Positions 21,077 through 23,573 of a stretch of DNA of 31,357 nt are shown here, one piece after another. The position numbers and the translations under genes were made by a program. Each line of letters starts with the position of its first letter. Position 1 is the stretch's first letter. The stretch spans positions 1-31,357 of IMG/VR virus record IMGVR_UViG_3300037119_006377. One strand, written 5' to 3'. This stretch comes from a virus. The notes under the pieces are model-generated. The model did no database searches, was not told the origin of the DNA, and worked only from the letters and a program-made list of their open reading frames with translations.

Positions 21077-21404
21077 ACGTCTCCCGCTGGATCACTACTT
21101 CGTCGAAGGCATGCGCCAGCGCATCGAGGTCGCATCGATCATCGACAAGCTGCAAAGCCATATCGATGACCCGGCAGCGTATCCGCTCAAGCAAACGCAG
21201 CTTGCCGCGGCGCGCCTGTTGCTCGAGCGCACCGTGCCCGTGCTACAGTCGATTGAACACAAAGATGTCAGCGACCGCCCGCCAACTCGCGAGGAACTGA
21301 TTGAGCGCATTACCGGAATTCACCGCAGAGCAACTGCAAAGCCTGTCGACACCGGAGCTAATGGAACTGACCCGCTTGCAGGATCAACTGCAACGCAGCA
21401 TTGA
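21063..21404 (+). CDS. Terminase small subunit candidate (113 aa)
   Basis: ATG 21063 is preferred (GAGGT about 9 bases upstream); ATG 21000 in frame has no ribosome site. The chain is mostly helix: KRLPLDHYFVEGMRQRIEVA, then IIDKLQSHID, then LKQTQLAAARLLLERTVPVL. The Q-x-x-A-A-R-x-L-L-E segment after a DNA-binding-like helix and the location just before the large subunit suggest the DNA-recognition subunit that starts packaging. It overlaps the large subunit by 104 bases in another frame, and the last 30 residues look less natural. Confidence 0.6.
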   Translation: MLGAKRLPLDHYFVEGMRQRIEVASIIDKLQSHIDDPAAYPLKQTQLAAARLLLERTVPVLQSIEHKDVSDRPPTREELIERITGIHRRATAKPVDTGANGTDPLAGSTATQH

Positions 21405-22035
21405 TACGAACAAGATCGACTCGTATTACCCGGATGAGGGACCGCTGCGGCGGGAGTTGTATCCGAAGCATTTGGAGTTCTTCAAGCTCGGATCAACATG
21501 CAATGAGCGTGCTTTTATTGCAGGTAACCGCACTGGGAAATCAATTGCCGGAGCTTATGAGGTATCTACTCATTTGTCCGGCAAATACCCACCATGGTGG
21601 GTAGGTAAGCGCTTCAACAGACCAATCAAAGCAGTGATCGCCGGCGATACAGCAAAGACATCGCGCGACATATTGCAGTTCAAAATGCTCGGTGATCCAA
21701 GTGACTTTGGGACTGGCATGATCCCTCAACACCTGATAGTTAAGACGACGCCAAAGCCTGGCATTCCAGATGCAATAGAGTCAATCTATGTGCAGCATGT
21801 TTCGGGTGGACAGTCGGTGTGTCAGATAAAATCTTTTGATCAAGGACGCGAAGCATTCCAAGGAACAGAACAGGATGTAATCCTCCTTGACGAAGAGGTT
21901 GACGAAAACATCTACACTGAGTGCTTACTAAGAACTATGACTCGGGATGGTTTGGTCCTGCTAACCTTCACCCCGTTGCGAGGACTCACAAATGTCGTGT
22001 TGTCTTTCTTGCCAGAAATGAAGCCGAGTGAATAA
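21301..22035 (+). CDS. Terminase large subunit, ATPase part
   Basis: TTG 21301 follows GAGGAACTGA; ATG 21361 is an in-frame alternative. This half carries the packaging motor: YYPDEGPLRRELYPKHLEFF, Walker A AGNRTGKS (residues 74-81), Walker B DVILLDEE (192-199) and coupling motif TFTPLRG (222-228). The ORF stops at 22033-22035, directly at the start of the nuclease part (TAATG). In related phages these are one protein, and the text of both ORFs joins smoothly, so either a single base is missing near 22032 or the two parts are made separately by reinitiation. Confidence 0.88.
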   Translation: MSALPEFTAEQLQSLSTPELMELTRLQDQLQRSIDTNKIDSYYPDEGPLRRELYPKHLEFFKLGSTCNERAFIAGNRTGKSIAGAYEVSTHLSGKYPPWWVGKRFNRPIKAVIAGDTAKTSRDILQFKMLGDPSDFGTGMIPQHLIVKTTPKPGIPDAIESIYVQHVSGGQSVCQIKSFDQGREAFQGTEQDVILLDEEVDENIYTECLLRTMTRDGLVLLTFTPLRGLTNVVLSFLPEMKPSE

Positions 22036-23573
22036 TGACTAAGGGCGTTGTCATGGCGTCATGGGATGATGCCGCACATCTCACGAGCGAGCAGAAGGAA
22101 AAAATGCTTGCGTCAATCCCTCCTTTCCAGCGCAAGGCACGCTCTCAGGGTATTCCGCAGATGGGAGCCGGGCTGATTTATCCTGTGGATGAAACGGACA
22201 TCATTGTTGATCCCTTCCCTATCCCTGACTTCTGGCCGCGTGTTTACTCCATGGATGTCGGCTGGAAAAGAACAGCCGCATTGTGGGGAGCCTACGATCG
22301 AGAATCAGAAACCTGGTATCTGTATTCTGAACACTATCGTGGCGAGGCTGAACCAAGTGTGCACGCAGCTGCGATACGTAGTCGCGGCGAATGGATTAAA
22401 GGGATTATTGATCCAGCCGCGCGCGGCCGAGGACAAGTTGACGGTAGGCAATTAATGCAGCTCTACAAGGATCTGGGACTAAACTTGACAGACGCAGACA
22501 ACACCGTTGGAAATTCGAGCGGCGAAGGCGGCCTTTATTCCGTCTATGAGCGCCTCTCCGGGGGCAAAATAAAAGTTTTCCGCACGTTGCAGAGCTTCTT
22601 GGGAGAGTATAGGCTCTATCGTCGAGACGAAAAGGGGCGAATAGTCAAGGTGAATGACCATTTGATGGATTGTATTTCTGGGGATTCGCAAATAATCACA
22701 AGAACTGGCGTCAAAATGATTAGAGATCTAGTCGGTACGTCAGGCGAAGTAATTGGGTTGGACGGCAAGTGGAAAAAGTACTACGACTGCGGGGTGCGGC
22801 GCGTCAATTCGCCGGTAATAGCACTAACTTTTAGCGATGGTTCGACAGTGAAATGTACTAGTGATCATTTATTTCTGACACCACGTGGATGGGAGAGAGC
22901 CCAATCCTTGATGGATGCATATCGATACGATATCATTGATCCGTGCGCGTCACCGTCATTTCGAATACAAAACAAGAATTCCTCGGCCTCACGTATTGGC
23001 TATGCGGAAAATATTTTCAGCGCTATGGCCTTCGCCTGCACCGGATTGTTTGGGAGCATGCGAATAGGCGTAAAATTCCTGATGGATATCACGTCCATCA
23101 TGTCGATGGCAATCGGTCGAACAATCAGCCTGACAATCTCGCATGCATTACGAATGCAGAACATATGTCTGGTCACCACAAAGGAATCGCAAGAAAGCTG
23201 GCGCCACTTGCGTTGGTCAAAGCAGCCGAATGGCATAGGAGTGAAGTCGGAAAAGAATGGCATGCAGTCCATGCAAAGGACAGTTGGGAGAAAGGCCACC
23301 CATGGATCGATAGAAACTGTGATCAATGTGGAAAGCAATTTAGAACTAGAATGCGTCACGGACGCTTCTGTCATCCAAATTGCAAGCAGGCAGAATTGCG
23401 AGCCAGAAGACGTTTACTGTCTATCAGTTCCTGACGGACATGCGTTCGTGATGGCTAATGGGTTGCTGTCACATAATTGCCTTCGCTATCTGATCGCCTC
23501 CGGCCTGAAGCGCGCGATTGTCAAGCCTGTGAAGGTCGAAGAGCCAGCCTTCTTTCCAACGGAATTCAGTTGA
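22035..23573 (+). CDS. Terminase large subunit, nuclease part, interrupted by an intein
   Basis: The 512-residue ORF starts at ATG 22035 overlapping the ATPase ORF stop. The N-extein (1-212) is the RNase H-like nuclease: MDVGWKRTAALWGAYDRE with catalytic-type D74, then IIDPAARGRGQVDGRQL with D127, and finally VNDHLMD. Residues 213-481 are the intein (separate entry). The C-extein (31 residues) continues CLRYLIASGLKRAIVK, so splicing restores NDHLMD-CLRY, the usual H-x-x-D-x-x-R-Y metal-binding motif. Without splicing the nuclease would be inactive. The enzyme cuts concatemers during headful packaging. Confidence 0.88.
   Translation: MTKGVVMASWDDAAHLTSEQKEKMLASIPPFQRKARSQGIPQMGAGLIYPVDETDIIVDPFPIPDFWPRVYSMDVGWKRTAALWGAYDRESETWYLYSEHYRGEAEPSVHAAAIRSRGEWIKGIIDPAARGRGQVDGRQLMQLYKDLGLNLTDADNTVGNSSGEGGLYSVYERLSGGKIKVFRTLQSFLGEYRLYRRDEKGRIVKVNDHLMDCISGDSQIITRTGVKMIRDLVGTSGEVIGLDGKWKKYYDCGVRRVNSPVIALTFSDGSTVKCTSDHLFLTPRGWERAQSLMDAYRYDIIDPCASPSFRIQNKNSSASRIGYAENIFSAMAFACTGLFGSMRIGVKFLMDITSIMSMAIGRTISLTISHALRMQNICLVTTKESQESWRHLRWSKQPNGIGVKSEKNGMQSMQRTVGRKATHGSIETVINVESNLELECVTDASVIQIASRQNCEPEDVYCLSVPDGHAFVMANGLLSHNCLRYLIASGLKRAIVKPVKVEEPAFFPTEFS
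22671..23477 (+). other. Intein in the terminase nuclease motif (269 aa)
   Basis: Splice block A is CISGDSQIITRTGVKMIRDL with Cys1 at 22671. Block B is VKCTSDHLFLTPRGW with the T-x-x-H signature. Blocks F and G are EDVYCLSVPDGHAFVMANG and LLSHN, followed by Cys+1 at 23478. All class 1 splicing residues (Cys1, B-block Thr/His, penultimate His, Asn, Cys+1) are present. Between about residues 90 and 235 of the intein the frame is open but has no endonuclease motif; instead an HNH nuclease is encoded there in another frame (22943-23434). Confidence 0.9.
22943..23434 (+). CDS. HNH homing endonuclease, out of frame inside the intein
   Basis: This 163-residue ORF begins at GTG 22943, just after an in-frame TGA (22937-22939), and lies two bases out of phase with the intein. 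It has the full family layout: FLGLTYWLCGKYFQRYG, LHRIVWEHA, then the HNH core IPDGYHVHHVDGNRSNNQPD with NL and AEHMSGHH (H52, H53, N65, H74), a helical linker, and a zinc ribbon NCDQCGKQF...RFCHPNC (C126, C129, C143, C147) ending in RARRR. Normally this domain is fused in frame in terminase inteins. There is no clear ribosome site, so expression is uncertain. It would cut intein-free terminase genes. Confidence 0.85.
   Translation: MRVTVISNTKQEFLGLTYWLCGKYFQRYGLRLHRIVWEHANRRKIPDGYHVHHVDGNRSNNQPDNLACITNAEHMSGHHKGIARKLAPLALVKAAEWHRSEVGKEWHAVHAKDSWEKGHPWIDRNCDQCGKQFRTRMRHGRFCHPNCKQAELRARRRLLSISS

Follow-up and report, generated by a model that had tools for sequence, protein, structure and literature searches.

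The terminase gene of the virus analysed here very probably carries a mobile intein in which a separate gene for an HNH zinc-ribbon homing endonuclease, read in a different frame, occupies the loop between splicing blocks B and F; splicing, the internal start of the nuclease and its homing are inferred. In textbook inteins, the endonuclease (LAGLIDADG or HNH) is an in-frame domain between blocks B and F. The intein described here shares with these the fold and the insertion site, and their endonuclease drives homing, but theirs is fused in the same frame and the same polypeptide, whereas none of the 57 loci of the present family has its HNH in frame. This out-of-frame nesting is a genuine variant of endonuclease-bearing inteins, widespread and maintained by selection, in which two genes share one DNA stretch.

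The window, by which we mean the whole stretch of 31,357 bases from an IMG/VR record, includes genes for terminase, portal, head-closure and helicase/primase proteins, and all features given below are on its plus strand. The ATPase half of the terminase large subunit is a separate ORF (21301-22035; Terminase_6N, 1.5e-13), and the ORF that follows (22035-23573, 512 aa) encodes the RNaseH-like nuclease sequence with the intein inside. The two ORFs meet at TAATG, the stop of the first overlapping the start of the second. This split looks natural rather than the result of a frameshift error, since the same two halves are separate in a relative, L011, where the division falls at the same interdomain point and the halves are separated by some 850 bp that hold two small ORFs. 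The N-extein (22035-22670), ending in NDHLMD, matches the terminase family phrog_5653 (6.2e-19) and, by tblastn, the TerL of MW202478 (L028), while the nuclease half matches Pfam Terminase_6C at 6.4e-4, slightly under the gathering cut-off. The C-extein (23478-23573), starting with CLRYLIASGL, aligns with the C-terminal part of TerL in MW202478 and L011. The insertion point of the intein is the nuclease active-site motif of the terminase large subunit, and in MW202478 the same region of the terminase holds a mini-intein that lacks the HNH.

An earlier sequence-only reading had placed an intein at 22671-23477, in the terminase nuclease motif, with its splicing blocks in one frame, and this is borne out by domain searches of ORF 22035-23573, which returned Pfam Intein_splicing (1.4e-9, residues 229-481), TIGR01445 for the intein N-terminus (1.5e-6) and TIGR01443 for the intein C-terminus (3.3e-8), all above cut-off. 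The N part (22671-22910) holds blocks A and B, with Cys1 and the motif T63-x-x-H66, and the C part (23400-23477) holds blocks F and G; they were also detected by purpose-built HMMs at 1e-24 and 1e-12, respectively. The end proposed at 23477 is exact, being the Asn of SHN that precedes the Cys of the C-extein. The residues of a class 1 intein are in place, namely C1, T63-S-D-H66 in block B, and N269 followed by C+1; C1 and H66 are invariant in the intein alignment and T63 is kept in at least 90%. In the AF2 model both ends of the intein reach pLDDT 92-98 in a Hint fold, with a middle of 41-53 that is predicted to be disordered, and the model matched the NpuDnaE and SspDnaB inteins in Foldseek at E of about 1e-6. 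By sequence and predicted Hint fold, the window ORF is thus a class 1 intein, its splicing activity being inferred. The middle (22911-23399) is a stop-free, unconserved spacer that would be excised with the intein, and no Pfam or PHROG family match was found for it in the intein frame.

The HNH ORF (22943-23434) begins with GTG, encodes 163 aa and matches Pfam HNH_3 (4e-16; 58.8 bits against a cut-off of 24.8) and the HNH endonuclease family phrog_15471 (1.8e-30). Its AF2 model has a mean pLDDT of 94, and in an alignment of 47 sequences the catalytic residues H52, H53, N61 and H74 are invariant and the four zinc-binding cysteines near-invariant. Relative to the intein codons, the HNH start is offset by 2 mod 3; the two frames therefore differ, and the nuclease lies in the -1/+2 frame instead of being fused in frame. 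Two codons ahead of the GTG, a TGA (22937-22939) closes the HNH frame. ORF frames and domain matches together confirm the proposal of the earlier reading that an out-of-frame HNH lies inside its host intein. That reading had also judged both frames to look genuine towards the 3' end. This stands for the last 35 nt or so (23400-23434), where the HNH tail LRARRRLLSISS overlies the block F sequence EPEDVYCLSVP and the Pro-Asp codons in block F spell out the HNH stop (TGA, 23432-23434), but not for the remaining intein-frame segment, which is unconserved spacer. In 53 of 55 relatives, the HNH ORF likewise reaches block F and conserved block F codons supply its stop.

Relatives were collected by tblastn with the HNH, by further scans and by purpose-built profiles for intein N, intein C and HNH. 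A contiguous intein with an out-of-frame HNH of the window's family was found in 57 distinct loci, 55 of them at -1/+2 and two at +1. The first 55, drawn from IMG/VR, phage and MAG sequences and all with distinct HNHs, comprise 53 in the window's relation and two in the opposite one (L004 and L008/L009); the other two come from phage and plasmid records, a human faecal phage (L151) and a plasmid of Halobacterium sp. GSL-19 (L153). The last of these is archaeal (plasmid or provirus) and has a terminase-position intein with the same out-of-frame HNH (L153:2702-3673) in an ORF annotated only as a Hint domain-containing protein and adjoining a phage portal. The layout is also present in the named phages Tetrasphaera phage TJE1, Acinetobacter phage Highwayman and a Rhodobacteraceae phage, in which terminase is the sole annotation at the nested HNH site. 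Pfam confirmed terminase together with Intein_splicing in several relatives. Clustering at 50% identity divides the nested HNHs into 39 groups, and the window HNH has a best identity of 46% to any relative. The scan of genome contigs gave one locus (L034), and a protein-level pattern scan of viral contigs with the intein query was empty, the conserved blocks being too short for such a scan. A (2/3)^n figure for never being in frame would be no strict probability, as the frame is inherited.

As separate observations, at L107:3129-4208 an intein in a very large ORF contains a distant relative of the HNH as an in-frame fusion, the sole in-frame case seen, and L120:1087-4239 is a single terminase ORF apparently with two inteins, one Hint domain spanning roughly residues 154-240 and the other beginning near residue 710.

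HNH and both intein halves occur non-contiguously in just four loci, L011, L142, L146 and L154. Three of these are probable split terminase inteins, found in Vibrio phage 1.238.A (L142:2229-3389), Lactobacillus phage CL2 (L146:1670-2774) and a Fructilactobacillus plasmid (L154:2544-3733), each with an HNH gene that lies between the intein halves and overlaps one or both of them. Brochothrix phage BL3 (L143:1936-2604) has a probable split intein with a mere HNH remnant. For these four elements no annotation as split inteins was found. Fractured genes, attributed to Dassa et al. (2009), are said to be split inteins whose halves flank a free endonuclease gene. The window resembles such genes, as the three split loci do, in having between the intein halves an endonuclease gene that is probably translated separately, but its intein is one continuous frame (ORF 22035-23573) that could splice in cis. 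Free-standing members of the same HNH family lie beside terL in Brevundimonas phage Poludnitsa, Acinetobacter phage BP10 and Exiguobacterium phage EauM-23, and further in Salmonella phages Shemara and PhiSTP1, Pseudomonas phage PAE1 and Sphaerotilus phage SN1. In a tree built by a quick method only, nested and free forms intermingle, and the starred branches force at least four changes. As far as sequence comparison goes, this suggests repeated moves between nested, free and split states, and we infer that the split forms look like nested forms after loss of openness.

The HNH is probably a homing enzyme that spreads the intein, although its family and position are the only grounds for inferring that it homes and where it cuts. 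The alternative that survives best, improbable but not negligible, is that it serves chiefly as a DNA-packaging partner of terminase, like HNH proteins encoded near terminases; the family does adjoin terL in the several phages named above, and a packaging association has been suggested for brucellaphages (PMC4422536). Against this, the nested gene occupies the canonical site of intein endonucleases, the nested, split and free forms are patchily mixed on the tree, and the nearest solved structure, although a weak match, is the intron homing HNH I-HmuI (1u3e; best Foldseek match E 0.12, profile search E 0.0027).

How the HNH is expressed is best explained by internal initiation, which is favoured because the HNH starts of relatives are enriched in Shine-Dalgarno sites and the window GTG aligns with the ATG of relatives (L117, L004, L045 and L049). 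Across relatives the start positions are conserved, and Shine-Dalgarno pairing is stronger than at matched out-of-frame starts (p 7e-5); L014, for instance, has AGGAGG 7 nt ahead of its ATG, and further examples are L117, L120, L126 and L133. The window site itself is weak and unexplained, no Shine-Dalgarno site being found at GTG 22943 and the local RNA structure not being unusual, and there are no expression data. The separate translation of the nuclease that the sequence-only reading envisaged is well supported by the relatives but not demonstrated. Programmed ribosomal frameshifting would instead give a fusion of intein-N and HNH with no independent HNH start. Most loci have the -1 relation, and in nine of 55 an X-XXY-YYZ heptamer occurs close to the junction, but 46 of the 55, including the window, lack a slippery heptamer, two loci have the opposite +1 relation, the same nuclease occurs free-standing and unfused, and the conserved, Shine-Dalgarno-enriched starts also argue for a start of its own; we regard frameshifting as quite unlikely.

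Openness of the intein frame was compared with a null in which the HNH protein and codon usage were kept and synonymous codons were permuted. The frame is open in all 55 loci against 6.4 expected, and for the window alone it stayed open in 1.1% of permutations. The null is calibrated, since the control of 39 HNH genes outside inteins matched expectation, with a mean of 4.79 stops observed in the same frame against 4.91 expected. Because the 55 contiguous loci had been picked for sharing one ORF, the fair count of openness is 57 of the 61 loci with HNH and both intein halves. The openness of the intein frame over the HNH is selected. Expected stops number about 2 in the -1 relation and about 15 in the third frame, and the bias to the -1 relation arises because the genetic code gives fewer expected stops in that frame.

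Codon-substitution rates in both frames, a check that the earlier reading had proposed, were obtained from six ungapped pairs of close relatives, the window itself having no close relative. The HNH is under purifying selection in the overlap (dN/dS 0.14-0.32), as is the intein outside it (0.04-0.25), whereas the intein frame inside the overlap is unconstrained (0.97-6.3). From this contrast, with which the AF2 model agrees, we conclude that the HNH is a coded product and the overlapping intein frame a spacer only: the overlap is a real gene on the HNH side and a passive stop-free spacer on the intein side, the exception being the last stretch in which the HNH tail overlies block F. The lack of constraint on the intein-frame protein in the overlap might also fit an HNH that is a relic in a working intein, with the overlap an insertion left open by happenstance. 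This is very improbable given the low dN/dS of the HNH, its near-invariant catalytic and zinc residues, and an openness that far exceeds expectation.

The contig is a metagenomic virus record and single indels do occur, as near 4226 in L011 (4001-4662), although there one apparent indel disrupts the HNH and intein frames together, as expected if both are coded, but the idea that two compensating sequencing or assembly errors near 22940 and 23400 had shifted an in-frame intein-HNH can be rejected with near certainty, because the homologues in 57 distinct loci from unrelated samples, the named phages (L031, L032 and L033) among them, carry the same out-of-frame layout. The layout is thus not a sequencing error, since dozens of phages unrelated to one another share it, as does at least one archaeal element. 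The preference of the earlier reading for overlapping coding over compensating frameshifts is decisively upheld, the intein frame being open in these loci, and the finding that would have refuted it, homologues that all carry an in-frame HNH, was looked for and not met. A group I intron with an HNH ORF was also considered and rejected; neither this region of the window nor nine relatives gave an Rfam match, and the host frame is open instead.

We propose that an HNH gene settled, in a different frame, at the usual endonuclease site of an intein, the loop that links block B to block F. Ribosomes starting upstream would read the entire terminase-intein precursor, although no expression data bear on this. 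The intein ends would then fold together while the disordered spacer is looped out and spliced away, presumably leaving a functional terminase; splicing data are likewise lacking. Other ribosomes may initiate internally, at the start codon of the HNH, and yield the nuclease as a separate, unfused protein, which could cut intein-less terminase genes, whereupon repair would copy the entire cassette. Because they are spliced away, the intein and the wrong-frame gene would be concealed from the host protein, much as an intron conceals its ORF.

The claim of the sequence-only reading that no intein with this layout had been described has to be withdrawn, because an out-of-frame zinc-ribbon HNH, putatively intein-encoded, is mentioned in one passage on the terminase large subunit of brucellaphages (PMC4422536, 2015). 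That case resembles the window in having a zinc-ribbon HNH out of frame in the terminase large subunit, but it is a passing mention concerning a near-identical phage group, without splicing-block analysis, selection test or survey. Brucellaphages were absent among the matches listed for tblastn with HNH queries, and the likeness rests on the published layout alone. Out-of-frame HNHs are also reported in the non-intein insertions of actinobacteriophage methylases known as the ShiLan domain (PMC11855218, 2025), which share with the window an out-of-frame HNH ORF with a GTG start, zinc fingers, an open host gene and no Shine-Dalgarno site. These insertions have no detectable splicing domains and are thought to be retained in the protein, whereas the window HNH lies inside a canonical intein with splicing domains. 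A preprint by Gosselin et al. (bioRxiv 10.1101/2025.01.02.630785), cited by PMC11855218 for overlapping frames in actinobacteriophages, concerns actinobacteriophage inteins of non-canonical architecture. In the literature searched, which did not extend to this preprint, there was no report of wide distribution, selection tests or a link to split inteins. The layout itself had already been noticed; the wide survey, the selection tests and the split-intein link appear new.

The family, with its 57 loci, spans bacterial and archaeal viruses or plasmids, and annotation of phage terminases misses the nested nucleases, as in TJE1, Highwayman and the Rhodobacteraceae phage. It provides a natural case of overlapping genes in which one frame is selected for its sequence and the other for its lack of stops, so that the two roles are separable, and it indicates that protein splicing can shelter a second gene in an intron-like manner. 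The nested layout also offers a simple route to split inteins. We tentatively suggest, at somewhat less than even confidence, that the nested out-of-frame layout is the standing form of this homing nuclease in phage terminases and the evolutionary bridge to naturally split inteins, loss of openness leading to split forms such as those of 1.238.A, CL2 and the Fructilactobacillus plasmid and then to the eroded form of BL3. If this is true, with the nuclease translated alone, only the absence of stops over the nuclease would hold the intein together.
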